From Actinokineospora spheciospongiae (lineage in GTDB: Bacteria > Actinomycetota > Actinomycetes > Mycobacteriales > Pseudonocardiaceae): a DNA stretch of 64,000 nt. Below, one piece after another: positions 43,075-64,000 of the stretch. The DNA lies in assembly GCF_000564855.1 (NCBI RefSeq), contig NZ_AYXG01000024.1, forward strand, positions 1-64,000. The letters run 5' to 3'. The stretch's first letter is position 1. Every line of letters starts with the position of its first letter. A program made the position numbers and the translations under genes. Under the pieces are notes generated by a model. That model searched no databases, was not told where the DNA came from, and saw nothing but the letters and a program-made list of their open reading frames with translations.

Positions 43075-43380
43075 ATGCCAGACGGCTACGACGTCCTGCC
43101 GGACGAACTGCGCAACCACGCGGGCAAGCTCGCCGCCCTCGGCGAACGGCTCGGCACCGCGGTGGACGCGGCGAACCAGGTCACCCTGGGCACCCAGGCC
43201 TACGGGGTGATCTGCCAGTTCTTCGTGCCCGTCGTGCAGGCGGTCAGCCAACCCGGGGTCGACGCGCTCGCCGAGGCCGCGGGGTCGATGGACAGCACCG
43301 CGAACGGCGTCCGCGCCAACGCGGCCTCCTACGACACCACCGAGCAGGCCAACACGCAGCCGTTCACCGGGGGCCGGTGA
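43075..43380 (+). CDS. EspC-like ESX substrate
   Basis: 101 residues forming an antiparallel helical hairpin of the T7SS EspC/WXG100 class: YDVLPDELRNHAGKLAALGERLGTAVDAANQV, then a central QAYGVICQFFVPVVQAVSQPGVDALAEAAGSMDSTANGVRANAASYD. It probably pairs with or helps export the deaminase toxin encoded immediately downstream (stop codon overlaps GTGATG of that gene). Confidence 0.8.
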   Translation: MPDGYDVLPDELRNHAGKLAALGERLGTAVDAANQVTLGTQAYGVICQFFVPVVQAVSQPGVDALAEAAGSMDSTANGVRANAASYDTTEQANTQPFTGGR

Positions 43381-45317
43381 TGACGAACCCGCTGATCGCC
43401 GAGCGCCAGGACTCCACCACCGCCTACAGCGGCATCGGCCTCGCCGAATCCGCGATGGACATCTACCACGGCGTGGAGGGCGGCTCCTGGGTCGAGGGCG
43501 GCCTCGGGGTCGTCGGCACCGGCCTGGAGATGCTGTCGCTGGCGCTGGACCCGGTCGGCACGCTGCTGCAGTACGCGGTGTCCTGGCTGATGGAGCACGT
43601 CAAACCGCTCTCGGACGCGTTGGACTGGCTGGCCGGTGACGGCGACCAGATCGCGGCGTACGCGGCCACCTGGAAGAACGTCGGCACCGAGACCGCCGCC
43701 ATCGCCGCCGACTTCGCCACCGAGGTGGTCAACGGCACCGCGGGCTGGGAGGGCCCGGCCGCCGACGCCTACCGGGCGTTCGCCAAGGACAAGCAGGACA
43801 AGATCGCCGCAGCGGGCACCGGCGCAGGCACCATCGGCACCGTCGTCGAGGTCGTCGGGATGCTGGTCGGCGCGGTCCGCGAGATCGTGCGCGACCTGGT
43901 CGCCGAGTGCGTGGCCACGCTGATCGCCCGCATCCCGCAGTGGATGGCCGAGATCGGCGGCACGCTGGGCGTCGCCACCCCGCACGTGGTGGCCTCGGCG
44001 GTGGCGCTGATCAGCAAGTGGGTCAACCGGATCAAGGACTTCATCACCAAGCTGACCCGCTCCCTGGACAAGCTGCGCCCCCTCATGGGCAGGCTCGGCG
44101 AACTCTGGGACTCCCTGCGCGACGCCCTGCGCAAGACCCCCGGCACCCCCGACACCACCCCGAACACCCCCGACGCGGTCCGCACCCCCACCTCGGTCTC
44201 CGACGTCCTCGACGGCGCCCCCGACGCCACCCGCTCCACCCCCGCCACCCCGGACGCCCCGTCGACCACCACCGACGCCCCGGGTTCGAGCGCCCCCACG
44301 ACCACGACCCCCTCCGGCGCGAGCACCCCGTCGAGCACCACGGACCCCACCGGCGGCACCCCCAGGACCCCCTCCCCGACCCCGTCGGGCACCACCACCC
44401 CGTCCCACGTCGACACCCCCACCGGCAGCGCCCCACCGACCTCGCACACCCCCTCGGGCAGCACGGTCCCCTCCGGCGTCACCACCCCGTCAGCCGCCAC
44501 CCCGACCGCGCCTCCCAGCGCTCCGGGCACCCACGCCCCCGGCGGCACCACCCCGTCGAGCGCCCCCACCACCCAGACCGGTGGCGGCTCCGGCGGCAAC
44601 AGCGGTGGCGGCCAACCCCCGCCCGGCGCGCCCACCGACCCACCGCCCCCACCCAGGCCCATCCCGCCGAACCGCACCGGCTCGCAGAGCCTCGGCCACC
44701 TCCAGGGCGACCTCACCCGCAACTCCGACGGCCTGATCACCCACGTCAACGGCAAGCCCCTCGACGAGCACCTGCGCGACCTGGCGACCCAGCGCACCGA
44801 CGAGATCCGCCGGATGCGCGACAACGGCGAGATCTCCGCCAAGGAGGCGGGCCCGGTCAACTCCGTCGCCGTCGACACCCGCACCGGCGAGGTCTTCGAG
44901 GGCGTCAACGGCCGCCCGCGCGACGTCATCCCCGAGGCGGACCTGCACCCGGTGCTGCGCGAACGGCTGGAGGAGATGCGCCAGAACGGCCCCTACCAGC
45001 AGTACGACCGCGACACCGGTCAGCCGCTGATGCGCGACGGCCAACCGGTGATGACCGAGTTTCCGCACGGTGACAACCCGCTGCGGCACGCCGAGGTCAA
45101 GGCGGTCAACGACATGCTGTGGAAGCGCGGCGAGGACGTCGACGCGAGCGTCATGTCGGAGTTCCGGGTGGACAACCGCTTCCCGTTCGGCAAGGAGGGC
45201 CCGGGCACCGCCCCGTGCTGCGCCAACTGCAATAGGATGCTGGCAGGCACACCCAGCAACGCGGGCCGCCTCACCTTCGACCGCGGCCACCCCAACAGCG
45301 AGTTCCTCCCGGAGTGA
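43377..45317 (+). CDS. ESX-exported polymorphic toxin with YwqJ-type deaminase domain
   Basis: 646 residues (GTG at 43377, or ATG at 43380). N-terminus (1-240) is helical with WXG-like segments and a membrane-active-looking stretch; 240-440 is a Thr/Pro/Ser-rich linker; the C-terminal ~200 residues are a YwqJ-family nucleic-acid deaminase. Zinc-site motifs are HAEVKAVND (His 571, Glu 573) and PCCANC (Cys 615/618). It is expected to deaminate nucleic acids in competing cells. The stop overlaps the immunity gene by 4 nt. Codon use is similar to the genome. Confidence 0.87.
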   Translation: MMTNPLIAERQDSTTAYSGIGLAESAMDIYHGVEGGSWVEGGLGVVGTGLEMLSLALDPVGTLLQYAVSWLMEHVKPLSDALDWLAGDGDQIAAYAATWKNVGTETAAIAADFATEVVNGTAGWEGPAADAYRAFAKDKQDKIAAAGTGAGTIGTVVEVVGMLVGAVREIVRDLVAECVATLIARIPQWMAEIGGTLGVATPHVVASAVALISKWVNRIKDFITKLTRSLDKLRPLMGRLGELWDSLRDALRKTPGTPDTTPNTPDAVRTPTSVSDVLDGAPDATRSTPATPDAPSTTTDAPGSSAPTTTTPSGASTPSSTTDPTGGTPRTPSPTPSGTTTPSHVDTPTGSAPPTSHTPSGSTVPSGVTTPSAATPTAPPSAPGTHAPGGTTPSSAPTTQTGGGSGGNSGGGQPPPGAPTDPPPPPRPIPPNRTGSQSLGHLQGDLTRNSDGLITHVNGKPLDEHLRDLATQRTDEIRRMRDNGEISAKEAGPVNSVAVDTRTGEVFEGVNGRPRDVIPEADLHPVLRERLEEMRQNGPYQQYDRDTGQPLMRDGQPVMTEFPHGDNPLRHAEVKAVNDMLWKRGEDVDASVMSEFRVDNRFPFGKEGPGTAPCCANCNRMLAGTPSNAGRLTFDRGHPNSEFLPE

Positions 45318-51004: not shown

Positions 51005-51730
51005 ATGCCTGCAATCTCGAAATCCCCGTTGGCGATCGTCGAACGCGCATTCGCCGAGTTGGCCGCGGCCAACCGAACGCCCGTGATCGACTGCTGGGAG
51101 GTGGGGATCGACATCGCCGACCGGAACCTGACGGCCGGTGAGGTGGTGGCCATGCTGCGCGACCGGGCAACAGGGCAATCGGCCCACTCCCAGTTGTGGA
51201 CCGAGACCATTCGGCGTGCCAAGGCGGACGCCCAGCCATGGCTGCTGTTCGCGGTCGCGGGAAGCCTGCCGAAGCTCAAGTGGGCCACCCAGCGCGCGTT
51301 GACTCTCCACGGCGGCGAGCGCGAGGACGTCGAGAGCACCGTGCTGGTCGGCTTTATCGAAGCAGTGATGTGCTGCGATAACACCATGCCGAGGCTGGTG
51401 CGCCACCTGGCCGAGGTTGCCTTCCAGCGAGCCCGGTACGGCGGCAGGCCGGAAACCGGCGGCTGGGAAGGTTCACCCGCGGACTCGGGGTCCAAGGTCC
51501 GACTCCTGCCCTTCACAAGCCCGGCGGGGCATCCGGATCTGCTGCTGGCGAGATTGGTGCGAGATGGCGCGGTGACCCAACTGGAGGCCGACATTATCGC
51601 CGCCACCAGGTTCGACGGAATGCACCCCAGGCTGGTGGCCGATCTCCTCGGTATCTCCCTCGCAGAGTGCCACCAGCAGCGCAAGTGCGGCGAGCGGGCG
51701 ATCGTCGACGTCCTTCGCTCAGCCGCCTGA
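51005..51730 (+). CDS. Sigma-factor-like protein, first gene of the SEFIR/caspase locus
   Basis: 241 residues. The middle (QPWLLFAVAGSLPKLKWATQRALTLHGGEREDVESTVLVGFIEAVMCCD) resembles sigma-70 region-2-like helices. The end (LLLARLVRDGAVTQLEADIIAATRFDGMHPRLVADLLGISLAECHQQRKCGERAIVDVLRSAA) resembles a region-4 helix-turn-helix. It probably binds DNA; whether it acts as a true sigma factor is unknown. 82 nt separate it from the SEFIR gene in the same direction. Comparable proteins precede other actinobacterial conflict operons. Confidence 0.6.
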   Translation: MPAISKSPLAIVERAFAELAAANRTPVIDCWEVGIDIADRNLTAGEVVAMLRDRATGQSAHSQLWTETIRRAKADAQPWLLFAVAGSLPKLKWATQRALTLHGGEREDVESTVLVGFIEAVMCCDNTMPRLVRHLAEVAFQRARYGGRPETGGWEGSPADSGSKVRLLPFTSPAGHPDLLLARLVRDGAVTQLEADIIAATRFDGMHPRLVADLLGISLAECHQQRKCGERAIVDVLRSAA

Positions 51731-51812
51731 GCACCCACCACAGCCAGACCCGCGGAATACCCCCACCGGGAGTGATCCGCATCCACACATCCGAAAGAAG
51801 GAGAACCGTCCG

Positions 51813-52982
51813 ATGAAGACAGAGATCCGCGAACAGCACCTGGCTGTTCCCCTGCGCCTGCGGGATCAGGGCTCCCGACTGCTGACTCGCCCGCCCGGAC
51901 CGCTCGACCTGGGCGTGCTGCGCTTGGCAGGCTGCCAGGCGCAGCGGGTCGCACTGTCGGACGACGCTTCCACGGGCCACGACCACCACCTGGTCCGGTT
52001 CAACCTCGAACTGGACGTGAACAGCTCGGCCCCGCCATTCGACTGGTACGAGGTGACCCTGTCATTCCCGGAGACCAGCACCGTGGTGGACGCTGCCCCA
52101 CACACCGCACCCCACCCCGTAGGCGCCCACTCATACGTGGTCAACCACTACGCGAACCTGGTGCCATGTGGAGACCACCCCGGCGACGCGTACCTGCCCG
52201 TACGGGACGCGGCCGTGAGCACCTTGGGGGTGGGCACCTCGGTAGTGCGCTGGCAATATCGGCGGGTAACCGGCTTCACCTCGGGTAGCCAGGTGGCCTG
52301 GGTCGTCCTGGCAGCACCCGCCGGGACAACGACCCTGCCGGTCAAACTGTCGGTGCGGTTCGACCATGCCGGAGAAGATGTGGATCTGCTCCCGGTCGAC
52401 CTGCCCATGCACCTCGCGGTCGCCCTCGCTGGATCGGGAGCAGCGTCGGCGCAGACGCCGCTTTTCCCGACCGCAGGCACCCGCCGAACCGCTGAGCCGC
52501 AGCCACCCCGCATCTTCATCTGCTATGCCCACGACACCCCCCATCACATCCAGCAGTGTCGAGCCCTCGCCCGGTTCCTGCAGCGGCAGGGCTTCGACGT
52601 GCACATCGACCACCTCTACGACAGCACGCGCCAGGACTGGTACGTGTGGGCCCACGAACAGATCACCACTGCCGACTTCACGCTAATCATCGCGTCACCG
52701 GCCTGCTGCGTCGTGGGGGATGGGCAAATGCCCGCCAAGCTGCACCGCGGTCTGCAGTCGGAAATGGGCATACTGCGCGAACTGCTGCACACTGATCGAG
52801 CACAGTGGACAAAGCGATTGCTCCCGGTGGTCCTCCCGGGCGGGACTCCGGATGAAATCCCCCTGTTCCTGCAGCCCAGGACGGTGGACCACTACCCGGT
52901 CCACGCCTTCACCAAGGCCGGTGCGGCTGACCTGCTCGCGGCCCTGCGGCACGATCCGCGCGTCCAGGGTGTCGCGGCGTGA
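51813..52982 (+). CDS. SEFIR-domain protein with novel N-terminal domain
   Basis: 389 residues. Residues 1-200 form an unrecognised beta-rich module (FNLELDVNSSAPPFDWYEVTLSFPE, VVRWQYRRVTGFTSGSQVAWVVLAAP). Residues ~232-385 are a SEFIR (TIR-like) domain: RIFICYAHDTPHHIQQCRALARFLQRQGFDVHIDHLYD, WYVWAHEQITTADFTLIIASPACC. SEFIR/TIR proteins in bacteria act as NAD-degrading or signalling components of anti-phage systems. The stop overlaps the caspase-helicase start by 4 nt (GTGA), so the two are made together. Confidence 0.85.
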   Translation: MKTEIREQHLAVPLRLRDQGSRLLTRPPGPLDLGVLRLAGCQAQRVALSDDASTGHDHHLVRFNLELDVNSSAPPFDWYEVTLSFPETSTVVDAAPHTAPHPVGAHSYVVNHYANLVPCGDHPGDAYLPVRDAAVSTLGVGTSVVRWQYRRVTGFTSGSQVAWVVLAAPAGTTTLPVKLSVRFDHAGEDVDLLPVDLPMHLAVALAGSGAASAQTPLFPTAGTRRTAEPQPPRIFICYAHDTPHHIQQCRALARFLQRQGFDVHIDHLYDSTRQDWYVWAHEQITTADFTLIIASPACCVVGDGQMPAKLHRGLQSEMGILRELLHTDRAQWTKRLLPVVLPGGTPDEIPLFLQPRTVDHYPVHAFTKAGAADLLAALRHDPRVQGVAA

Positions 52983-55900
52983 CGGGGAACCCCGGTGTCC
53001 ACGGCCTGTTCATCGGTGCCGGCGAGGTTTGCGTGCCCGGTGCGCCACCGGCGCGCCACGCCGCGGCCGACGCCATCGCTTTGCACGCACTGTTCGCGGA
53101 CACCATCGGTGACCAGGCGGCTCTGCTGTGCGACCGGGATGCCACCTCGGAAGCGGTCACCGAGCACCTGGCACGGTTGACCAGGATCAGTGGCCCCGAT
53201 GACACAGTCGTGTTCACCTTCTCCGGGCACGGCACGCGAGATCGGCGGTTGGTCACGCATGACACCGGCGAGGCGTACGCCGGGCTGCCGATCGACGACG
53301 TGGTGGAAGCGCTCAGAGCAGTACCCGCCCGCGTGCTGCTGGTCGCGCTCGACTGCTGCTTCTCCGGCATGCCATCCGCGCGGGACCTCAGCGTGCCTGC
53401 CCCCTCAAGACGCGGAACCCAGCCGGACAAGAGCGGTCGCGGGTGGGTCGTGTTGACGGCTGCTACCGCGGAGCAGGAAGCGCGGGCACCGGTCGAGCAC
53501 GGCCACGGTCTGCTCACCTACCACCTGCTTGCCGGCCTCAGCGGGGCACCAGAGGTGCTGGATGGTGACCGGATCGGCCTGACGCGCCTGGTGGACTACG
53601 TCCGACGGCAGGTGGGCGGAACGCGGTCGGCAACCGACGCCCGCAGGCAGGACACCACCGCGCGGACCGGCATCGAGGGCAACCCCACCTTACCGGTTCT
53701 GAGACCCGGCGCCCGATACCGCGCCGCACACGGAGCGCATCAACCGATCGCGGCGACCGCAGCGCCGTCGAGCCTGGTGCGCCACGGCGTTCCCGAACCG
53801 GTGGCAGCGATGTGGGCCAGAGAGGTCGGACACCTCAACAGGCTGCAACTACGAGCGATCAACGAAGCACAGGTGTTGGCGGGCGGAAGTGCGGCAGTGT
53901 CGGCACCAACAGCCTCGGGCAAGACCGCCATCGGGAGAATCGTCGCGGACCGAGTGGTCGCCGACGGCGGGCGGGCCGTGTTCCTGCTTCCCACGCGCGC
54001 ACTGGTGGCGGAGTTGTACGAGCACCTCACCCGCACCCGGACGCCACTGGGCACCCGGATCATCCGGGTGACCGGTGAGCACACCGACCAACTCGCCGAC
54101 CTGGTGACCGGCGAACACGACATCGCGGTGCTCACCTACGAGATGTTCACCGGCCTGCTGCTCAAGCACCCGCGACTGCTCACTGCGACCCGACTTCTGG
54201 TGGTGGATGAGATCCACAACATCGCCTCCGCAACCCGCGGACCGGGGCTCGAGTTGGCGCTGATGCTGGTCCGGCTGCACCAGATCGACCACGGCGGACC
54301 GCAGGTCATCGGGCTGTCGGCGGCACCGGGCGGCTTCGGCGACCTGGAAACCTGGCTGCGCGCGACACCGGTGGTGTCGGATCTTCGGCCCGTTCCGCTG
54401 CTGGAGGGCGTGTTGACGCCGGACGGGGAGTTCCGCCACCTTGGTCCGGATCGCATCGAGACCGTCGACCACCTGCCCGGGGCGGCGGGACAGGACACCC
54501 GCATGGTCGCACTGCTTCGACATCTGATTGCGGACGCAGGCCAGATCCTGGTCTTCTGCTCGACCAAGCGGGCGACGCGGTCGTGCGCGGCAACGGTCGG
54601 AGCCGCGCTCGACCTGCCGCCCGCCAACCGGACTCTCGCCGACCTCCCCGACGACGACCTGGGATACGTGGGCGAGCAGCTTCGCGCCCGCCTGCGTCAA
54701 GGCGTTGCGTTCCACACAGCCGAACTGTCCCAGGATGAACGCCGCGCGGTGGAGATCGGGTTTCGGGACCACCGCGATGTCCGGGTGCTGGTCACCACGA
54801 CGACCCTGGCCCAGGGGGTCAACCTGCCTGCGGGCACCGTCGTGGTCGATGGACTGGAACACCCGGACGGGACGCCGTACTCGGTCATCGAGTACAAGAA
54901 CATCGCGGGCCGAGCGGGCCGCACAGGTCTCGCCGAGCGCGGCCGGTCCGTGATTCTCGCGCGCAGTGCGGCGGACGCGCGGATGAAGTGGGCCACCTAC
55001 GTACGAGGCACCGGACCGCCGCTGCGCTCCGCGCTCCGCTTGCCGGGGGCCGACATCCGGCGGTGGGTGCTGCACGCCTGCGCAGGCAGGCTGGTCAGCG
55101 GGCACAGGCCCACGGGCGCGGACGTGACCGGCTTCCTCCGGTGGAGCTTTGCGGCGCACCAATGCCGGATGACCGACGAACCGGACCCGTTCCCACCAGA
55201 AGTGGTGGAGCAGGCGCTCACCGACTTGACGGCCTACGACATGGTGCGTCCGGTCGCATCGGGCCACACCCTGACACCACTGGGTGAAGTCGCGGTCGAA
55301 CACCACCTCGATCCCGAATCTGTGGCCATGATCGCAGATGTGCTGGCGGAGATGGGCAACGACGACATCAACGGGGCGACCCTCATCGGTGTGGCTCAGT
55401 TGACGGCAGAACTGGACCAGGTGCGGTTCGTCGCGGACGCGACTGAGGACGTCGCGTTGTCCCAGGCCCTGAAGCGGCAGCGGCTCGCGCCCGTCGTGCT
55501 GGACCGGTTTGGAAGCGGTAGAGCACGCGCGGGGCGAGCCAAACGGGTGGTGGCCTGCCTGGCCTGGTCGCGTGGAGCCCCACTCAGTACCGTCGAACAG
55601 GCGCTCGGGGGATCAGTCCGGCACGATCCCGTTCCGGTGCGCCGCGCTGCGGACCGCACAGCCGACGTACTGCCTGCTGTGGTCGGCGTCGCCCGACTGC
55701 TGCACCCGGTACCGAAGTTGGCGGCGCTCGGCGCACTCCTGCCCCGGCAACTGCGACTGGGCGTGGTGGACGGTTTGGTCGCTGTGGCGAGCCGTACCTC
55801 TGCCGAGGTGGGACGCGGCACGTTCTGCGCGCTCACTGCGGCGGGTGTGAACTCGCCTGCGGCGATCGTGGCCGCATCGGATGCTCTGCTCCTGAGTTGC

Positions 55901-56014
55901 ACGGGCGGCGATCAGGGGCAACTCGGGGAACTGCGGGCCGCAGCGGTTCGAGAAAAGCAGGAACAGCCCGACCTCGCGGCGCTGCTGGCAGAGCCATCGA
56001 ACGACCATCCCTGA
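52979..56014 (+). CDS. Caspase (C14) - Ski2-like DExH helicase fusion
   Basis: 1011 residues. N-terminal caspase fold (1-245): VVFTFSGHGTRD with His 84 and VALDCCFSG with Cys 127, the catalytic dyad. Then a superfamily-2 helicase: Walker A APTASGKT (309-316), DEIH (410-413), and the Ski2/Hel308-like TTTLAQGVNLPAGTVVVDG and NIAGRAGRTG (641-650). C-terminal ~340 residues are helical (winged-helix/ratchet-like). A helicase that recognises an aberrant nucleic acid and unleashes a protease is the natural model. No close named family is known to me. Confidence 0.88.
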   Translation: MTGNPGVHGLFIGAGEVCVPGAPPARHAAADAIALHALFADTIGDQAALLCDRDATSEAVTEHLARLTRISGPDDTVVFTFSGHGTRDRRLVTHDTGEAYAGLPIDDVVEALRAVPARVLLVALDCCFSGMPSARDLSVPAPSRRGTQPDKSGRGWVVLTAATAEQEARAPVEHGHGLLTYHLLAGLSGAPEVLDGDRIGLTRLVDYVRRQVGGTRSATDARRQDTTARTGIEGNPTLPVLRPGARYRAAHGAHQPIAATAAPSSLVRHGVPEPVAAMWAREVGHLNRLQLRAINEAQVLAGGSAAVSAPTASGKTAIGRIVADRVVADGGRAVFLLPTRALVAELYEHLTRTRTPLGTRIIRVTGEHTDQLADLVTGEHDIAVLTYEMFTGLLLKHPRLLTATRLLVVDEIHNIASATRGPGLELALMLVRLHQIDHGGPQVIGLSAAPGGFGDLETWLRATPVVSDLRPVPLLEGVLTPDGEFRHLGPDRIETVDHLPGAAGQDTRMVALLRHLIADAGQILVFCSTKRATRSCAATVGAALDLPPANRTLADLPDDDLGYVGEQLRARLRQGVAFHTAELSQDERRAVEIGFRDHRDVRVLVTTTTLAQGVNLPAGTVVVDGLEHPDGTPYSVIEYKNIAGRAGRTGLAERGRSVILARSAADARMKWATYVRGTGPPLRSALRLPGADIRRWVLHACAGRLVSGHRPTGADVTGFLRWSFAAHQCRMTDEPDPFPPEVVEQALTDLTAYDMVRPVASGHTLTPLGEVAVEHHLDPESVAMIADVLAEMGNDDINGATLIGVAQLTAELDQVRFVADATEDVALSQALKRQRLAPVVLDRFGSGRARAGRAKRVVACLAWSRGAPLSTVEQALGGSVRHDPVPVRRAADRTADVLPAVVGVARLLHPVPKLAALGALLPRQLRLGVVDGLVAVASRTSAEVGRGTFCALTAAGVNSPAAIVAASDALLLSCTGGDQGQLGELRAAAVREKQEQPDLAALLAEPSNDHP

Positions 56015-56030
56015 TCGGAGGAAGCACGCG

Positions 56031-58187
56031 GTGACGGCATTCGGCGACGAACTGAGAGCACTTCGACGAAACCGGGAAATCCAACAGAAGGACGCTGCCC
56101 GAGCGCTGGCCATGAGTCCGAGTCAGCTGTCCAAGCTGGAGACCGGGAAGAAACTCCCCAGCGAAGCGGCGGTGCGGCGTGCCGAGGCCTACTACGAGAC
56201 GAAAAGCGGCCATTTGCGCAATCTGCTCGGCCCCGTGGGCCTGCCCGGGCACGGTCTGGTCCCGCAGGGCCTGCTCTCCGGTCCTCAGCACTTCGTGGGG
56301 CGGGACGAGATCCGCACACGGTTGGTCAACCGACTCCGGAGCGGCAGACCCGGTGTGATCTCGGTCGGTGGCCTTGGTGGGATCGGGAAGTCCGCGCTCG
56401 TCAACACGGTGTGGACCGACGTGGCGAAGGACTACCCGCATGGGGCCGTGGTACTCGACCTGCACGGACACGCGGAGAACAATTCCGAGTGGACGACGGG
56501 TGGCGCGCTGGCCAGCCTGCTCGCCCTCTTGGTCGGCGCAGAGCGCCTGCCCATCGACCGGGATGGTCAGGTCAACCTCCTGCGCACACTGCTGTCGGAT
56601 CGACGAATGTTCTTGGTGATCGACAATGTGCGTCACGTGGACCAAGTCCGCGATCTGCTGCCCGGTGACTCGGGCAGTGCCGTCGTGGTTATCAGCCGCA
56701 CCCGACTGACCGCGCTGACCGACGCCGAACACATCGACCTCAAACCCCTGGAGCCCGGGGCCGCCCAGGAACTGTTCGGCCGGATCACCCGGGTGAACCA
56801 GGAAGACGAGCGGTACGTGAACGAGATCCTGGAGCACTGCGGTGGGCTGCCGCTGGTCATCCAGGCGGTCGCGGCTTCGCACCACACCGGAAGTTGGGAC
56901 CTGGCCGAACTCCTCGACCTGCTCCGCAAGGCTCAACTGGCCGCCCTGGACGATGACCGCTGGATCAGCGCCCTGACCGTCTCGTTGGACCTGTTGAAGC
57001 CCGATGAGCGGGAGTTCCTCACCCTGCTCAGTCTGCACCCCAGCAGCCGGATGGACCGAAACACGGTGGTGGCCCTGTCCGGAGCCGCCCCGAACGACGC
57101 GAACCGACTCACCACCAGGCTCTTCAACTCCTACCTGGTCGACCGCTATCCGGGCGGAGCGGTGGAACTGCACGACGTGGTCCGCGCGCACCTGGTCGAG
57201 CAATGGAAGCCGCAACTGGACGCGACCGTCCGCGACAAAGCCATCGCCCGACTGCTCGACCACGTCGCGGGGACCGTGGCCCGGGCGGACGCCCTGCTGG
57301 AGCCGGACCGTTGCCGTCCGGAAGTTCCGGAGTCAACGATCGACTTCACCGACGCGGCAGGGGCGCTGCGCTGGCTACGGGACTCCTGGTCGACCGTCAC
57401 CGCCTTGGCCGAATTGGCTGCGGACTCGGGGCACCCGCAGCGCTGTGTGGACCTCGCGCGGTTGATGCGCGGCTTCTTCGGCCGCGACAAGATGATCGAA
57501 CAGTGGATCGCGCTGCACCGGCGCGCCCTGGCGGCGGCCCAGGGAGCGGCCGACGACCGCGCCACCGCCTCCACGTTGACCAACCTGGGCATGGCGCTGC
57601 TGGAAGGGGGAAGACCAGAGGAAGCAGCTGAATGTCACGCGCGAGCAGCAGAGTTGTTCACCGCACTGGACGACCGCCTGGGCGCGACCGATGCGCGCTC
57701 AAGCCTCGCGTGGGTACGCATCTACCAGGGTGAATCCGAGGCGGCGCTGGCAGGCTTGGCCGAGGCGGCGGCCAGTTACCTGGCGAATGGCCGCACCCGG
57801 AACCTGATGATCAGTCTACGTGGGATGTCCTTGGCGGCAGCCGCGCTCAACCGCACCGCTGAGGCCCTTGACCACGCCACCAGAGCGGTGGAGTTGAGCA
57901 CCACGCCGCGCGACGAGGTCCTCGCGGTCAACGGCCTGGCCTGGGTTCACTTCCGTGCCGCCCACCACGCGGAGTCGGAACGCCTGTACCGATGGGCCGC
58001 CGCCTTGGCCGCTCGGGAAGAAGAACATGCCGAACGCGCCCGCGCCCTCAATGGCTTGGGCAACGTGGCCGCTGCCCAGGGCAAACACGCCGAGGCTCAG
58101 CACTGGTGGTCCGAAGCGGACAATGGACCGGTAGCGCTCAACATTCGAGTGGTCGGTGAACTATCCTACCGCAGAACCGCTGCCTGA
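56031..58187 (+). CDS. HTH - NB-ARC - TPR STAND regulator
   Basis: 718 residues. N-terminal XRE-type HTH (FGDELRALRRNREIQQKDAARALAMSPSQLSKLETGKKLPSEAAV), NB-ARC ATPase (VGRDEIRTRLVNRLR; Walker A GGLGGIGKS at 113-121; FLVIDNV; VVISRTR; CGGLPLVI), then TPR-like repeats to the end. The GTG start follows CGGAGGA, 16 nt after the helicase stop, so same transcript. Could be a transcriptional switch or a sensor of the locus. Confidence 0.88.
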   Translation: MTAFGDELRALRRNREIQQKDAARALAMSPSQLSKLETGKKLPSEAAVRRAEAYYETKSGHLRNLLGPVGLPGHGLVPQGLLSGPQHFVGRDEIRTRLVNRLRSGRPGVISVGGLGGIGKSALVNTVWTDVAKDYPHGAVVLDLHGHAENNSEWTTGGALASLLALLVGAERLPIDRDGQVNLLRTLLSDRRMFLVIDNVRHVDQVRDLLPGDSGSAVVVISRTRLTALTDAEHIDLKPLEPGAAQELFGRITRVNQEDERYVNEILEHCGGLPLVIQAVAASHHTGSWDLAELLDLLRKAQLAALDDDRWISALTVSLDLLKPDEREFLTLLSLHPSSRMDRNTVVALSGAAPNDANRLTTRLFNSYLVDRYPGGAVELHDVVRAHLVEQWKPQLDATVRDKAIARLLDHVAGTVARADALLEPDRCRPEVPESTIDFTDAAGALRWLRDSWSTVTALAELAADSGHPQRCVDLARLMRGFFGRDKMIEQWIALHRRALAAAQGAADDRATASTLTNLGMALLEGGRPEEAAECHARAAELFTALDDRLGATDARSSLAWVRIYQGESEAALAGLAEAAASYLANGRTRNLMISLRGMSLAAAALNRTAEALDHATRAVELSTTPRDEVLAVNGLAWVHFRAAHHAESERLYRWAAALAAREEEHAERARALNGLGNVAAAQGKHAEAQHWWSEADNGPVALNIRVVGELSYRRTAA

Positions 58188-58504
58188 CGACTGGGGAAAC
58201 AAACGGGTGATGCCCTGTGTACACCGCACCCGCTCCACAAGGCGGAGAACACATGCCTGTTCGCGACTGCACCAGAGGAACCGCGCCGCACACGGCCCGC
58301 TTGGCAAATACAGGCCAAGATGCAGGCGGACTACCGCAAGAAACCAAGGAGGAATCCAGGAGAGCAGACAGCATTCGGCTCGGATTGATTTGAGCGCGGC
58401 GGAACTGCTCGAAGCGGAAAGCAGTGCCTGTCGGGTCAAGCCATAGCGCCTCCAGTGCCTGTGGAACTCCGGAAGAATAACACCATACACGATAGGATTG
58501 AATT
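58188..58504. other. Intergenic region with lower GC
   Basis: 317 nt between the STAND gene and the Mrr-like gene. Composition drops markedly from about 58200 on. No open reading frame looks real and no clear promoter was recognised. The border probably marks an acquired segment. Confidence 0.5.
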
Positions 58505-59569
58505 ATGCCCGTATTCGACCCCGGTGTCGAGCATCCTGTTCAACTTGCGCTATGGGGTCGACCTGATTTGAGAGTCGAAGGTGATGCGCCGCCCGGGATG
58601 TCTTTCGATGTTGCAAAAATTTCCATTGCCGATTCGACCGAATACAACCGGCCCCGCATATCCAACAGACTCACCATCAACGGCAAGCCTCAGCCTTCAA
58701 CAAGATACCCTGTATTCAAAAAATTTAGGAATAATACCGTTGTCGACGACTTGCCTGGTTTCGAAAATCTGCCAACTCGCGTAAAAAATTGTCCTTACTG
58801 CCACACAAGCATGGGTGCGACAGAAATTCACAACCATGGGCCCGAAGACGGAGATCGGACTGCGGGCCAACTTTTGGAATACTGTCCCAATTGTACTTTC
58901 TGGCAGGCCCATGGACTTCGAATGCAAGGGTATGAAGCAAGGTGCTCCCTATTCTATAATTTTGATGTCGCAGTATTGTCTTCCAAGGTTAAAGAGTTCG
59001 AAACAGATTTCCCCGAAGGGAGTCTATCTGAAATATCGCAGTGGTTGCGAAGGCATCCCGAGAAGTACCAGACCATGCCTCCGCGATATCTTGAAGTTCT
59101 GGTGACAAAACTTTTCCGCAACATCGGTACCTACGTAGAGGCACGCCACGTTGGACGGCCGGGCGACGGCGGCGTCGACGTATTGCTGGTTGACGCCGAA
59201 GGGTGTTCGTGGCTTGTCCAAGTCAAACGCCGCGAGGATGTCGACTCCGCAGAACCCGTGTCCACCATCCGCAATGTATTGGGATCAATGGTCTTGGAAG
59301 GCTTCAAACACTCCATCATCGTGTCGACAGCCGACCGCTTCACTCTTCAAGCGCAACAAGCCACAGGCCGCGCAGAAGGAAAGGGATACGAAATACAATT
59401 GGTAGACAGAGGCGTTCTGGATCGCATCATCGGACGTTCACTTCCTGTCGCACCATGGCATCGCATCCAAGAGGAGATACGGAAGGGTGACGCCAAATGG
59501 GTCGCCGAAGAATGGTGCTTCTGTGGCTGCACCTGGACAAGGAAGGTCGAGCCGTACAATGATATCTAG
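58505..59569 (+). CDS. Zinc-ribbon / Mrr-like restriction endonuclease
   Basis: 354 residues. N-terminal treble-clef or zinc-ribbon region CPYCHTS ... YCPNC (about 97-130) and CFCGC near the C-terminus. The Mrr_cat nuclease domain (about 195-300) has EVLVTKLFRNIG (Glu), GRPGDGGVDVLLVDAEG (Asp) and WLVQVKRRE (QxK variant of PD-(D/E)xK). It should cleave DNA, perhaps modified DNA as Mrr does. Base composition is AT-richer than everything around, with codons unlike neighbours, suggesting recent acquisition. Confidence 0.82.
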   Translation: MPVFDPGVEHPVQLALWGRPDLRVEGDAPPGMSFDVAKISIADSTEYNRPRISNRLTINGKPQPSTRYPVFKKFRNNTVVDDLPGFENLPTRVKNCPYCHTSMGATEIHNHGPEDGDRTAGQLLEYCPNCTFWQAHGLRMQGYEARCSLFYNFDVAVLSSKVKEFETDFPEGSLSEISQWLRRHPEKYQTMPPRYLEVLVTKLFRNIGTYVEARHVGRPGDGGVDVLLVDAEGCSWLVQVKRREDVDSAEPVSTIRNVLGSMVLEGFKHSIIVSTADRFTLQAQQATGRAEGKGYEIQLVDRGVLDRIIGRSLPVAPWHRIQEEIRKGDAKWVAEEWCFCGCTWTRKVEPYNDI

Positions 59570-59651
59570 CAGGACAATTTAATCGACAATCCGCATCCAG
59601 GAAGGTTTCGAACTACAAGGCTGTCTACGCCCCCGGGACCGAGTCCGGTCA

Positions 59652-61805
59652 TCAGCGCTGGTTTGCCCCCACATCGCCTTCGGCCAGACTCCGCTCAATT
59701 GCTTGGATGAACGAACTGACGCCACGGCCTTGCGGCAAGATCTGCTTCGACTTCGGCCTTCGGCTGTCGATGACGACCGTGGCTGCGTGTGCGGCGTGCC
59801 TCACGTCGACGATCAGGTGGTCCGCACGGTCGACCAAGGCAATCAACGCCTCGGTCGAGACCGTGTCCGCGTTGCCCACGACCTCGGCAGGTCTGCACAA
59901 CTTCAGCAGGCGGTTCTCCAGAAGTCGAGCGGCGTGGGGAAGCAGTGAGTACAATCCGATCACCGTGCCATTGAGCCTGCCCCAGACTACGTCAGCGCTC
60001 ATAACCGGGGCAGCGATCTTTCTCGCTGGGAGGCCGACTTCTTCAGCCAGAGCTTCGATCTCGACGCTCTGGCGATGGGAGAGCCTCTGGCCGCTGAGAT
60101 TGCGGAGTTTTCCGATGAGGCCGTGGATGGCGTTCAACCGCATGCCGGGCTGCGGGGTTGGCTCTTCCAGCATCATGTCCATGATGGCGATGGCCCAGTC
60201 TGCCGCCGTCGGCGCACTGATCGTGTCCCACAATTTCAATGCGTGTTCGAGTGACTTTTCGTACTGCTCGGCGGACGGGCCGCTGCTGAGGATGACCCCA
60301 AAGAGTTCGAGGTAAGCATTGCGCACCGGAAGGCTCAGATTGCCCTGTTCAGCAAGGATCTGCAGGACGACGTCTCGGAACTCGGCGATGTTCGCGATCG
60401 GTGTGGCCGCCTCTTGGCACAGGAGGTCCAAAGACGCTGTGACCTGGTCCGAGTTGGAACCTGCCCAGGCGTCCAGCAAGGCGTAGGCGACTGCGCTCGC
60501 CTGGCCAGGAGATAGGCTTTTCAGCTCAGACCAGCCGCTGTGGGCCGATCGCAGGGTGTACTCGGCTTCAGGCCAACGTCTGGGCTGAGCAACCCTGGTG
60601 CACCAATCCAACCAACTGGCGCAGGTCTCGTCCGCAAGTCGTTTGAGATCATCTAGATCCTTCTTGAGCCTGCGGCCGAGTACGAGACCTCCGGTGTCAG
60701 CGAGGCCGCGAACGGCCTCGAACACCGCGAGCGCACGACTTGTGTCTTCGCAGTCGAGGACCGCCTGGACGGCCAGATCCGCCGTGGAAGCGTCCACGTG
60801 CTCCAGGAAGGCGGCGATCACAGCGTGGTACTGACCCTGTTCGAACAGTGTGGACATGTCCGTGACAGGCTGGGTGAAGTCGTCGAGCAGTGGGGCCATG
60901 AGTTGCGTGAGCCGTTCACGCTCCACATCGTCTTCTGCCGCGGAGAGCAACCGATCAGCCCGTCGGGCATCGTCCTGGAGAACCGCGGCGACTGCCGCGA
61001 CGCAGCGACCTGCCCAACTTACGGGGACATCGACCGCACCGACGACGCTGCCGTAGCGAGCAACGAGATTCGACTCGTCGAAGGCTTCTGGCGTGATCGG
61101 CCCCACCGAGAAGGTGGTGGCGAGATCGGAGCGCCAGATCATCTCCAGCAGTACTTCGTTGATGGCTCGAGGACGCCGAGTCCGGAGCAGTTCGCCCAGG
61201 TAGGGGAGAGCTTGCAACTCGGCCCACCGTCCAAGGTTGCCCAGCATCTGGATCACGAGGAACCGGATGTTCTCGGCGCTCATGGTGCCGGTCAACTCGA
61301 GGGCCTCAAGTGCCCGCTCGGCGGCCTTCGCGTCGTTTTGGCGCAGCCCGAGGCGGAAGTCTCTGAGAAGGTGGATGTATGACGGGTTCAGCGACCTGGT
61401 GCTGACATCCCTTCCTTTGACAGTGGCCACGATGTCCTCGATGACACGGATGAATTGATCCTGATCGCCGCGGACCCGCTTGATCGTCGATAGATACTGC
61501 AAACCTGCGGTGGAGAGATCTAGATCGGTTTGCTGAACTCCCGGGGCGAGCGATGCGGAGTCGATCTCCGCCGCAGCGCCGAAGAACGCCTTGAGCACTT
61601 CCTTGCCCCGCCTGTGGCCTTCTCGGCTGCGTGAGAGCAGGTAGAACCCATCTGGCACGCGGTGCAATGGCACGATCAACCAACCAGTTTGGTCGAATTC
61701 GTCTTGCTGCAACTGCTCGTCGAGCAAAATTTGCACCTGTCGTCGATACACGCGGAATCGGTCGAGGTCTCCCCCGCACTTGACGATGGTGTCACCGAAG
61801 TCCAT
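59652..61805 (-). CDS. dpdD: DpdD-like protein
   Basis: 717 residues, mostly alpha-helical, no enzymatic motif I can name. The C-terminal HAATVVIDSRRPKSKQILPQGRGVSSFIQAIE matches a conserved tail I associate with DpdD of the 7-deazaguanine DNA-modification (Dpd) gene clusters. Its downstream position after a PLD-like gene (overlap of 14 nt) supports this. The function of DpdD is not known. ATG start; codon use is normal. Confidence 0.55.
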   Translation of the reverse strand: MDFGDTIVKCGGDLDRFRVYRRQVQILLDEQLQQDEFDQTGWLIVPLHRVPDGFYLLSRSREGHRRGKEVLKAFFGAAAEIDSASLAPGVQQTDLDLSTAGLQYLSTIKRVRGDQDQFIRVIEDIVATVKGRDVSTRSLNPSYIHLLRDFRLGLRQNDAKAAERALEALELTGTMSAENIRFLVIQMLGNLGRWAELQALPYLGELLRTRRPRAINEVLLEMIWRSDLATTFSVGPITPEAFDESNLVARYGSVVGAVDVPVSWAGRCVAAVAAVLQDDARRADRLLSAAEDDVERERLTQLMAPLLDDFTQPVTDMSTLFEQGQYHAVIAAFLEHVDASTADLAVQAVLDCEDTSRALAVFEAVRGLADTGGLVLGRRLKKDLDDLKRLADETCASWLDWCTRVAQPRRWPEAEYTLRSAHSGWSELKSLSPGQASAVAYALLDAWAGSNSDQVTASLDLLCQEAATPIANIAEFRDVVLQILAEQGNLSLPVRNAYLELFGVILSSGPSAEQYEKSLEHALKLWDTISAPTAADWAIAIMDMMLEEPTPQPGMRLNAIHGLIGKLRNLSGQRLSHRQSVEIEALAEEVGLPARKIAAPVMSADVVWGRLNGTVIGLYSLLPHAARLLENRLLKLCRPAEVVGNADTVSTEALIALVDRADHLIVDVRHAAHAATVVIDSRRPKSKQILPQGRGVSSFIQAIERSLAEGDVGANQR

Positions 61806-62334
61806 TGATCGACCCTCCGAATCTGTCGTACGCGTCCATCCTGGCCCGCGACACGTACTCCTCGTCGATCCTCAGTTCGACCTGTTCTTCCCTGACGTTG
61901 ATGCCGTTGTAGGTGATGTTCATGCTGCCCGACACCGCGAACCCATCGCCGGTCAGAGCCTTGGAATGCAGCCGTCCGCTCACGTCGACGACGATGGAGA
62001 CCCTGTCGGTGACTCCGAGGTCGCGAGCCAGAGACCGAACTCGGTGGAGGAAGGTGGAGTTGTGGCTGTCGGATGTCGTGCCGATGACGACCGTCGAGCC
62101 TGCGGCAGCCAGGGTCACCAGGATCTCGGCCAGGCGGATGTGGCGGCGACCGAAGCGGTTCAGGTCGGGAAAGGTCCCGGCGGTGTTGTTGAGGATGTCG
62201 ACGTCGGTGATCCAAGGGGACACCAACCACAGGCACGTGCTGGGCATCGCGATCTCCGCGGCGAACAGCGAACTGAGCAGGTCGTGCGCTTCGCCTGCGC
62301 TCTGCGCCTTCGATTTTCGGATTACGCGGTTCAC
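61792..62334 (-). CDS. dpdK: Phospholipase D-like protein, DpdK-like
   Basis: 180 residues. PLD-superfamily core: CLWLVSPWITDVDIL, then RLHSKALTGDGFAVSGSMNITYNGI, i.e. one HxK...(D)...S/N motif (RLHSKAL with SGSMN), as in single-motif dimeric PLD nucleases. Probably cleaves nucleic acid. The GTG start overlaps the stop of the upstream large gene by 4 nt. The order large gene, PLD, DpdD-like matches dpdJ-dpdK-dpdD. A DISARM DrmC assignment is less likely because no DrmA/B are visible and the partner differs. Confidence 0.65.
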   Translation of the reverse strand: MNRVIRKSKAQSAGEAHDLLSSLFAAEIAMPSTCLWLVSPWITDVDILNNTAGTFPDLNRFGRRHIRLAEILVTLAAAGSTVVIGTTSDSHNSTFLHRVRSLARDLGVTDRVSIVVDVSGRLHSKALTGDGFAVSGSMNITYNGINVREEQVELRIDEEYVSRARMDAYDRFGGSINGLR

Positions 62335-64000
62335 GGCGCCTCCCGGAGGAGGAGTCGTGCTTCAGCCATACCCGTGGCGCGGCGGACGCCGACCACGATG
62401 GGGTGACACAGCAATGCCCCAACCTCTACCGGCTGGGTCTGCAGGTCCAACAGGACTGTTCTCAGGTTGGCGGTGTGCTGCAGTGGCGTTCGCAGCACGA
62501 CTTCCCCGTGCTCGACCAGGGCCTCGTGCACTCGGATGCGACATGCATCGTCCCAGGAGTCGACATCCACTGTCTTGGGCCCGAGGTGGATGTGCGCGCG
62601 GATCGCGGGCATGAACACCTGCAGTCCGTCTCCAGCGCTGCTGGAACTCCGCGCGTGCCCCCACGGCCAGAGCACATTGGCAACCGCCCGCGCCCGCTTC
62701 TCCGGAGTCCCGGCGTCGCCGAGGTGCAGTATCGCGTCGAGTTCACCACATCCGGCAAGCAGGCCGCCCAGCGTTCGCGGGTCGACCTGGAGTCCGGTGC
62801 GCGCGGTCACGCCGTCGCGCAAGGCCAGCCAATGCGCCACCTCGTCGATGAGACCCCCGTGAGCGCCAGGCCCGGCTATCCGGGTGCTGACCGCTGATCT
62901 GGCGGGGCCGCCGAGGATGATGCCGTGGAGTCGAGCAGCGTCGTCCACAGAGCGAACGGCCGCAGCGACGGTGTCATGTCCTGCATGCCACGCGTCGCGG
63001 AGGCCCTCCAACGCCTCACGCACCTCAGGGGCTGTGCTGCGGATGAGCGCAGTCAGTTCGTCATCGAGCGTCTCCACAGCCGATGGGGCCAGGCTGTCTT
63101 CGACCGCCCGGGCGAATCCGTCGGGATCGTCGTTCAGGGCGCGCGTGAACGCCTCGATCTGGCCGGTCCCGCCAGGGGATTGCTCCGAGAACCAGAAGCG
63201 CAGGTCGTCGTCGGGGCTCAGATCAACCGCGATGTCCTCGGCGTCGACTCCCGGGCACAGCGCCGACAGCGCTGACAGGACGATCGCCGCGGCAGAATAG
63301 GTATAGGTGCGCTGCCACCACGTGGTCCACGCGTCGGAGCGGCTCTCCGCGCGAACGTCGTCGACTGCGGCGTGGAGTGTCGACACGACGTCGGTGTCGG
63401 AGAACCACTCCCTCCACTGGGTTTTGCCCTGGGCGTGCTCGTGCTGTTCGTCGAGCACACCCAGGACGGCGGCGGCCTCCGTGAGCGCGTGCGGCGTCAA
63501 CATCTCCGCCGGTACGTCCTCCGCGCGGTCGGCTGAAGCAGCCACGGCGAGCAGCAGGACTTGGAAGAGACGGTCGCGGTCGAAGTAGGACATGTCTTCG
63601 GGCAGGTCCGCTTCGAATGTGATCAAGTGGCGCAAGCGCGCTGTGCGTTCGGTCGGCGTCGGCGGACCGATGGCATCGGGTCGGCGAACGACGAATTCCA
63701 TGGCGTCGCACTGGACCTCGACACCGATGGCGGCGGGGACCCAGTCACGTCCTCCACCGGTGCCGTATTCCAGGCGGACGTTGCGACGCGCGCGGTCCCA
63801 CAACGTGCCGCGTGCGGCCTGGGCGAATCTGATGATTCTTGCTCCGCCTCCGTGGAGGTGCAGATGCGTGTCCGCACGGGCGACGACACCGAGCACGGCT
63901 CGGGGCAATCCGACCAGACTGCCCTCGCCCAGGGGCAGGGCGTGGAACTGCCATTCCGGCCGCATCGAGGAAGCGTCCCGGATGTCGTCGGGGACATCAG
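62331..64000 (-). CDS. C-terminal part of a large protein, possibly DpdJ-like helicase (partial)
   Basis: The frame is open to the window edge (before the ATG at 63965 it reads ...DVPDDIRDASS), so the start lies outside. At least 556 residues: an N-terminal stretch IGVEVQCDAMEFVV resembles the C-terminal DUF1998-like region of large DNA helicases; the rest is helical with WPWGHARSSSSAGDGLQVFMPAIRAHI near the end. By gene order it is probably the end of a DpdJ-like helicase. No helicase motif lies within the visible part. Confidence 0.45.
   Translation of the reverse strand, partial: DVPDDIRDASSMRPEWQFHALPLGEGSLVGLPRAVLGVVARADTHLHLHGGGARIIRFAQAARGTLWDRARRNVRLEYGTGGGRDWVPAAIGVEVQCDAMEFVVRRPDAIGPPTPTERTARLRHLITFEADLPEDMSYFDRDRLFQVLLLAVAASADRAEDVPAEMLTPHALTEAAAVLGVLDEQHEHAQGKTQWREWFSDTDVVSTLHAAVDDVRAESRSDAWTTWWQRTYTYSAAAIVLSALSALCPGVDAEDIAVDLSPDDDLRFWFSEQSPGGTGQIEAFTRALNDDPDGFARAVEDSLAPSAVETLDDELTALIRSTAPEVREALEGLRDAWHAGHDTVAAAVRSVDDAARLHGIILGGPARSAVSTRIAGPGAHGGLIDEVAHWLALRDGVTARTGLQVDPRTLGGLLAGCGELDAILHLGDAGTPEKRARAVANVLWPWGHARSSSSAGDGLQVFMPAIRAHIHLGPKTVDVDSWDDACRIRVHEALVEHGEVVLRTPLQHTANLRTVLLDLQTQPVEVGALLCHPIVVGVRRATGMAEARLLLREAP

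Follow-up and report, generated by a model that had tools for sequence, protein, structure and literature searches.

The 64,000-nucleotide stretch of Actinokineospora spheciospongiae DNA analysed here (the window; contig NZ_AYXG01000024.1, positions 1 to 64,000) contains, on its forward strand, a gene for a SEFIR protein that overlaps a gene in which a caspase is fused to a helicase. Sequence comparisons indicate that the two genes are a conserved, co-inherited pair: both were found in 18 loci of 17 genomes, the window included, together with genes of the pPIWI_RE system in 16 of these loci and with a STAND gene in 12. In the likely reading, the locus encodes a caspase-family protease and, coupled to it, a SEFIR effector; a Hel308-like helicase would sense nucleic acid. 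We call it protease-coupled, TIR-like, nucleic-acid-sensing immunity, a set of parts for which we found no report in the open-access literature.

Our preferred reading, held tentatively and at a little under even confidence, is that the SEFIR protein and the caspase-helicase form a single immune unit, coupled at translation; a STAND protein often accompanies it, as does, in most cases, a cassette that targets nucleic acids. Within the unit, activation would pass from the helicase to the caspase and on to the SEFIR domain.

The overlapping SEFIR and caspase-helicase genes

The SEFIR gene (51813..52982, forward strand) encodes a protein of 389 residues, P0002. Residues ~1-220 form a domain (the N-domain) that belongs to no Pfam family, and a profile of 14 such proteins retrieved only SEFIR structures from the Protein Data Bank; residues 233-354 are the SEFIR domain (Pfam E 3e-10). 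The caspase-helicase gene (52979..56014, forward strand) encodes P0003, of 1011 residues, with a caspase at ~10-212, a Hel308/Ski2-type superfamily 2 (SF2) helicase at ~273-816 and a C-terminal region up to residue 1011. Pfam recognised Peptidase_C14 (caspase; 9.1e-9), DEAD (2.7e-21) and Helicase_C (1.1e-10) in this one protein, in keeping with the alignment of its relatives described below (A1), and among solved structures the helicase part was closest to Hel308 (6e-51), with HamB far behind (8e-22). Caspase His84 and Cys126, the helicase Walker A and DE motifs and SEFIR Glu317 are all present.

Both genes belong to a run of four co-directional genes, which the first-pass annotation had described as tightly spaced with a 4-nt overlap between SEFIR and caspase-helicase. 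All four frames are indeed open, with spacings of 82 bp, a 4-nt stop/start overlap (SEFIR/caspase-helicase) and 16 bp, and Pfam bore out the proposed SEFIR, caspase-plus-helicase and HTH-NB-ARC-TPR identities. A promoter scan gave no site within the cluster, and terminator-like sites were fewer than expected by chance (3 observed, 5.4 expected).

The pair and its partners in other genomes

Relatives of the caspase-helicase were sought with profile A1, a 14-sequence alignment, which found 487 of them in actinomycetes, proteobacteria, planctomycetes, cyanobacteria, Bacteroidota, Chloroflexota, Acidobacteriota and others. We compared 93 loci, a best-scoring rather than random sample: the best 80 of the 487, nine plasmid loci (9 of 15 listed matches, namely H1-H6, H9, H10 and H12, seven of which cover at least 80% of the query) and four loci from genome searches. 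Two pairs of these loci share one genome each (L035/L052 and L037/L109), and the flanks extended for 10 kb (wider only for L034, L037, G696 and G771), so that genes further out may be hidden. Altogether 143 plasmid records match the caspase-helicase, nine of them over at least 80% of the query. Within the order to which the window belongs, matches at E 1e-40 occurred in 5 of 298 genomes including its own, which holds a single full-length copy; scanning genome contigs with the P0003 sequence alone confirmed 0 of 34 candidates.

An N-domain SEFIR protein was encoded in 14 of the 93 loci (13 genomes). Genes of pPIWI_RE were present in 17 (15 genomes), including all 14 with an N-domain SEFIR. The 76 loci in which pPIWI_RE was not scored contained no such SEFIR; because the cassette was looked for with the proteins of locus L044 as tblastn queries, divergent ones may have been missed among these 76. 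The same queries, run on six pPIWI_RE loci found through Pfam, gave weak DinG, RE or PDDEXK matches and no PIWI match. Pfam and PADLOC together identified PprPIWI, PprDinG and PprRE in L044 and L083, and PprPDDEXK in L044. Elsewhere in the phylum, pPIWI_RE loci were found in 6 of 396 genomes, and none of the six fetched stretches (two of them short) contained either the caspase-helicase or the SEFIR gene, so the link is to one pPIWI_RE subtype.

Two arrangements recur. In L039, L041, L043, L044, L046, L057, L060, L070 and L095, the SEFIR and caspase-helicase genes lie ~8.7 kb apart and bracket the reversed pPIWI_RE genes; in L035/L052, L047 (Actinokineospora enzanensis), L048 and L083 the two are adjacent, as in the window, and the reversed pPIWI_RE genes lie upstream. 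Counting every locus in which an N-domain SEFIR gene either adjoins the caspase-helicase gene or brackets pPIWI_RE with it, the window and 17 other loci qualify. Stop and start codons overlap in the window and in four other adjacent pairs, while a gap of 3 nt separates the pair in L176.

Only two of the 18 loci, the window and L176 from the same genus, carry the pair without pPIWI_RE; tblastn with the L044 proteins found no pPIWI_RE gene in the window. The genome of L176 also holds the pPIWI_RE-type locus L047. In place of pPIWI_RE, L176 has, upstream of its SEFIR gene, genes for a MinD-like/CATASP protein, a 205-residue protein and a HerA-like (DUF87) protein. This cassette of a MinD-like protein (CATASP in L176), a protein of 205-210 residues and a HerA-like ATPase was seen at L176:3201-9280, at L182:1-5125 and near L083 and L109.

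The association was also approached from the SEFIR side, with a profile (A2) of N-domain SEFIR proteins from the window and the loci of 13 other genomes. Among 390 genomes of the window's family, at least 20 places in 19 genomes, the window included, matched over both N-domain and SEFIR, besides many SEFIR-only matches, whereas a search of 394 genomes of the class with P0002 alone found no other N-domain protein; in both searches four candidates were scored per genome, which makes the counts lower bounds. Close to the 20 N-domain SEFIR genes we found a caspase-helicase in 11 cases, a caspase-like CHAT gene in seven and neither in two. All seven CHAT genes were confirmed by Pfam; six adjoin the SEFIR gene and the one in L180 lies ~3 kb away. 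Eighteen control regions of 20 kb, taken from seven family genomes at hand-chosen round-number positions rather than by a generator, gave no caspase, CHAT, caspase-helicase, pPIWI_RE, STAND or SEFIR match at the same cut-off, although the CHAT queries came from four of the loci themselves and could miss distant CHAT or caspase genes there. This search added the SEFIR/caspase-helicase loci L173, L174, L175 (with L186) and L176. Locus L182 combines the MinD-like/HerA-like cassette seen in L176 with a SEFIR gene and an HTH-NB-ARC-TPR gene, and no protease was found in it.

The histories of the two genes also agree. Pairwise distances of SEFIR and caspase-helicase across the 18 loci were strongly correlated (Mantel r 0.959, a value reached in 0 of 5000 permutations). 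Groups shared by the two trees include L176 with L044 and L095, and the four Streptomyces. The L047 row stood in the wrong frame in the SEFIR tree; the correct frame was used for the distance correlation. The window forms a long branch, placed within the pPIWI_RE-linked clade in a tree of 82 rows and outside it in one of 24 rows; with so unstable a place, the window may have lost pPIWI_RE or may never have had it. The nesting of L176 with two pPIWI_RE loci suggests that there pPIWI_RE was lost or replaced.

Key residues are largely kept. In 98 caspase-helicases (those of the 93 loci, the window and four later loci, near-copies included), the caspase His is retained in 97, the Cys in 93 and the five helicase residues checked in all. 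Alanine or serine replaces the Cys in L056, L110, L111 and L174, where the helicase motifs are kept, and the L092 protein is cut short. The SEFIR Glu, retained in 24 of 25 SEFIR domains, occupies what we take to be the position at which TIR NADases carry their catalytic Glu.

The STAND gene behind the caspase-helicase in the window (P0004; 56031..58187, forward strand) encodes 718 residues with Pfam HTH_31, NB-ARC and TPR matches and the P-loop GLGGIGKS. Its relatives (tblastn, E 1e-10) occurred in 10 of the 93 loci (nine genomes), all of them SEFIR loci, against none of the other 79; with the window and the later loci they account for the 12 of 18 given above. In eight of the nine genomes the gene lies behind the caspase-helicase on the opposite strand, and in L048 it is at the far end of pPIWI_RE. 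The positional link of the STAND gene to the pair is real. Proteins of this type are common, with 23 matches in the window's own genome, P0004 included. Nine locus-linked proteins scored 243-297 bits against P0004, compared with at most 161 for 12 own-genome paralogues; in the reverse search with five locus proteins, P0004 ranked first for L057 and L060 and tied for L039 and L043, while L035 preferred a paralogue. Orthology of the locus-linked genes is likely. Looser clustering also brought in the cyanobacterial loci L072, L084 and L089, in which a TPR-rich gene sits immediately before the caspase-helicase on the opposite strand; that of L084 encodes a TPR-CHAT protein rather than a STAND protein, placing two caspase-family proteases side by side.

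Caspase-helicase genes have other neighbourhoods as well. Nine alphaproteobacterial records (L064-L069, L078, L085 and L093) share one neighbourhood of the gene, matching position for position, and this points to a mobile island that spread recently. Annotations next to the gene in the related L032 name multiubiquitin, ThiF and DUF6527 proteins. In L036 (6407-12899), the gene overlaps by 4 nt with an upstream gene that reads by eye as a tyrosine integrase, and the gene after it reads by eye as a serine recombinase. On a Bacteroidota plasmid (L028:13210-19533), genes for a Piwi-domain protein, a DpnII/MboI-type nuclease and a helicase lie just downstream; the annotated Piwi gene has a classical Piwi domain, not pPIWI_RE. 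In plasmid loci L025 and L026, the caspase-helicase adjoins TIR and caspase-family genes, and directly upstream of it lies a gene of ~200 codons without annotation, which in L025 had no Pfam match.

Named systems and genomic surroundings

The first-pass annotation had proposed that the locus matches no named system. PADLOC-DB 2.0.0 agrees, giving only partial matches for the SEFIR protein and the caspase-helicase, and literature searches, restricted to open-access papers, returned no description of the combination. SEFIR as a term is absent from the available text of PMC7159879, PMC8195603 and PMC12799240, nor does it appear in the accessible portion of PMC7641849, where the term for Piwi-related proteins is used. 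The view of the four genes as the whole system was not supported, given that 16 of the 18 pairs are accompanied by pPIWI_RE, which has been described as a candidate system in its own right. Conserved co-occurrence held for the SEFIR, caspase-helicase and STAND genes and failed for the first gene.

Most relatives of the pair thus carry pPIWI_RE (Ppr in PADLOC), but the window has none of its PIWI-RE, restriction endonuclease and DinG-type helicase genes. According to the available text of PMC3702460, pPIWI_RE was predicted in 2013 to act in RNA-dependent restriction, with no death effector named; caspase and SEFIR terms do not occur in that portion of the description. A PIWI-RE protein is reported to be a guided nuclease (PMC10991935).

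Hachiman HamMAB resembles the locus in coupling an SF2 helicase to a protease, and PADLOC finds HamB-model matches in the helicase part of P0003. In that system, as given in the available text of PMC12799240, a helicase complex senses DNA and, by way of a protease, brings about the activation of a pro-nuclease. By contrast, no HamA-type match turned up in the eight proteins scanned, the P0003 helicase is nearer to Hel308, and here helicase and protease, the latter a caspase, are joined in one protein that has a SEFIR partner. Type IV Thoeris, as far as its accessible description goes, likewise joins a TIR-superfamily protein to a caspase-like protease; the window differs in having SEFIR instead of TIR, a caspase fused to a helicase and no messenger-binding domain recognised by Pfam. 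The 2023 copy of PADLOC gave no Thoeris match except a weak one of ThsB1 to the SEFIR domain (E 0.037).

The remaining candidates share single features. The PADLOC bSEFIR model matches the SEFIR domain (E 8.6e-14), but only over positions 37-103 of 412, and in the window the SEFIR domain sits C-terminal to the N-domain and is tied to a protease gene. The EACC1-associated caspase, with a similar two-gene logic, is the best NCBIfam match for the caspase part, but at 80 bits against a cut-off of 140; no EACC1 gene turned up, the model of EACC1 itself not having been among those searched. Canu also combines a caspase domain with a two-gene logic, and in the available text of PMC12799240 it consists of a caspase with an immunoglobulin-like (Ig-like) domain and a gated nuclease of the metallo-beta-lactamase (MBL) fold, whereas the four window genes gave no MBL-fold nuclease or Ig-like match in Pfam. 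On these Pfam, PADLOC and NCBIfam outcomes, Hachiman, bSEFIR, EACC1 and canu were rejected as the identity of the locus.

The gene preceding SEFIR (P0001; 51005..51730, forward strand; 241 residues) had been called sigma-like, but Pfam (E up to 10), PADLOC and NCBIfam all returned nothing for it. As neither the 93 caspase-helicase loci nor the 18 SEFIR regions contain a relative, and its sole relative among the compared loci lies in a control region, P0001 was rejected as a system component; it is probably just a neighbour. The suggestion that it and the HTH protein control expression received no support from any result.

The Mrr nuclease and Dpd-like genes of the first-pass annotation were both recovered. 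The Mrr-type gene (58505..59569, forward strand; 354 residues; Pfam Mrr_cat 1.5e-14) is an island neighbour without relatives in the compared loci; around it, G+C falls to 56% at 58001-60000, the remaining 2-kb steps ranging from 61.5 to 79%. A Dpd (7-deazapurine DNA) cluster adjoins the locus at 59652-64000, with DpdD and DpdJ inside the window and DpdH, DpdF and DpdE directly past its end (L038); DpdJ looks short because the window ends within it. Of the decayed toxin genes named at first pass, the analysis covered one deaminase-type, toxin-like open reading frame, at 43377-45317; it has a WXG100-like N-terminus and a YwqJ-deaminase-like C-terminus, both just below Pfam cut-offs. A PIWI-RE match above the Pfam cut-off lies on another contig of the genome (L120; G000:C209:22410-23150); no relatives of the three L044 pPIWI_RE cassette genes surround it, so it looks like a standalone PIWI-RE type.

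How the pair may work

The roles proposed at first pass, with the helicase as sensor, SEFIR as NADase and the caspase as effector, are plausible as putative assignments. We infer the defence role itself, sensing by the helicase, cleavage of the SEFIR protein, NADase activity and the part played by STAND, as well as which of SEFIR and protease acts on the other. In the order that we prefer, the Hel308-like helicase would engage foreign or abnormal nucleic acid, and its ATP-driven movement or oligomerisation would turn on the fused caspase. The caspase would then cut a target, for which the SEFIR partner is the likeliest candidate: the N-domain of that protein may keep SEFIR in check until cleavage, and the freed SEFIR would oligomerise, consume NAD+ and stop the infected cell. 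The STAND protein might act as a second sensor or scaffold, and the window copy, without pPIWI_RE, would depend on the helicase (and STAND) for sensing. We prefer this order since the fused helicase offers an input, by analogy with HamMAB. In favour of the reading as a whole we count the co-occurrence, the matched distances, the gene overlaps and the retained residues described above, and the fact that 18 of the 20 N-domain SEFIR places in the family lie near a caspase-helicase (11) or CHAT gene (7), against 0 of 18 controls. Several observations weigh against it: 79 of the 93 caspase-helicase loci have no N-domain SEFIR, and the caspase-helicase can therefore work without one; L034 and L037/L109 combine pPIWI_RE and caspase-helicase with no SEFIR, even 10 kb further upstream; two of the 20 SEFIR places (L179, L182) have no caspase or CHAT that we could find; the caspase Cys is replaced in four proteins, one of them (L174) from a SEFIR locus; the N-domain has no family assignment; and correlated distances also arise through common descent within a genome.

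What is most faithfully repeated is an N-domain SEFIR with a caspase-superfamily protease, while the rest varies. A possible, if rather doubtful, view is that the two form a portable effector cassette that can be combined with different sensing cores (two gene arrangements of pPIWI_RE, the HerA/MinD-like cassette, TPR-CHAT proteins), of which the window would carry a stripped form with the helicase as sensor. If so, its combination with pPIWI_RE would amount to an immune system related to Argonaute and equipped with two coupled death effectors. The same constant pair would fit a reversed order, in which SEFIR makes an NAD+-derived messenger that switches on the caspase (or CHAT) protease to destroy cell proteins. 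Type IV Thoeris, where the TIR product N7-cyclic ADP-ribose (N7-cADPR) activates a caspase-like protease (available text of PMC12847820), sets the precedent; yet the caspase of P0003 is fused to a helicase that offers its own input, and Pfam recognised no messenger-binding domain in the protein; we consider this order unlikely. That the caspase-helicase is a self-contained defence protein, with SEFIR, STAND and pPIWI_RE as separate systems sharing an island with one subtype, would accord with its occurrence without SEFIR across numerous phyla, frequently on plasmids or next to recombinases, and with the six other pPIWI_RE loci that lack both partners. We consider such plain island sharing quite unlikely because of the start/stop overlap, the controls and the matched trees, and the repeated arrangement holds even where pPIWI_RE lies between the pair. 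Quite unlikely as well, finally, is that the window set is what remains of a pPIWI_RE-SEFIR-caspase-helicase system after loss of its core and has ceased to function as one. The prevalence of pPIWI_RE among the 18 loci, the place of the window in the 82-row tree and the nesting of L176 would be in line with such decay, but the three window genes are open with intact motifs, and the 24-row tree places the window outside the clade, so pPIWI_RE may never have been present.

Caspases and TIR-like enzymes are two hallmarks of animal and plant immunity. The pairing of one SEFIR family with either a caspase or a CHAT protease raises the question of whether the protease acts on SEFIR or SEFIR on the protease. 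Overall, the pair looks like a portable infection-response unit, usually set around Argonaute-like genes, and its conservation around one pPIWI_RE subtype suggests a bacterial locus in which the recognition of nucleic acid is connected to both a caspase and a TIR-like enzyme.

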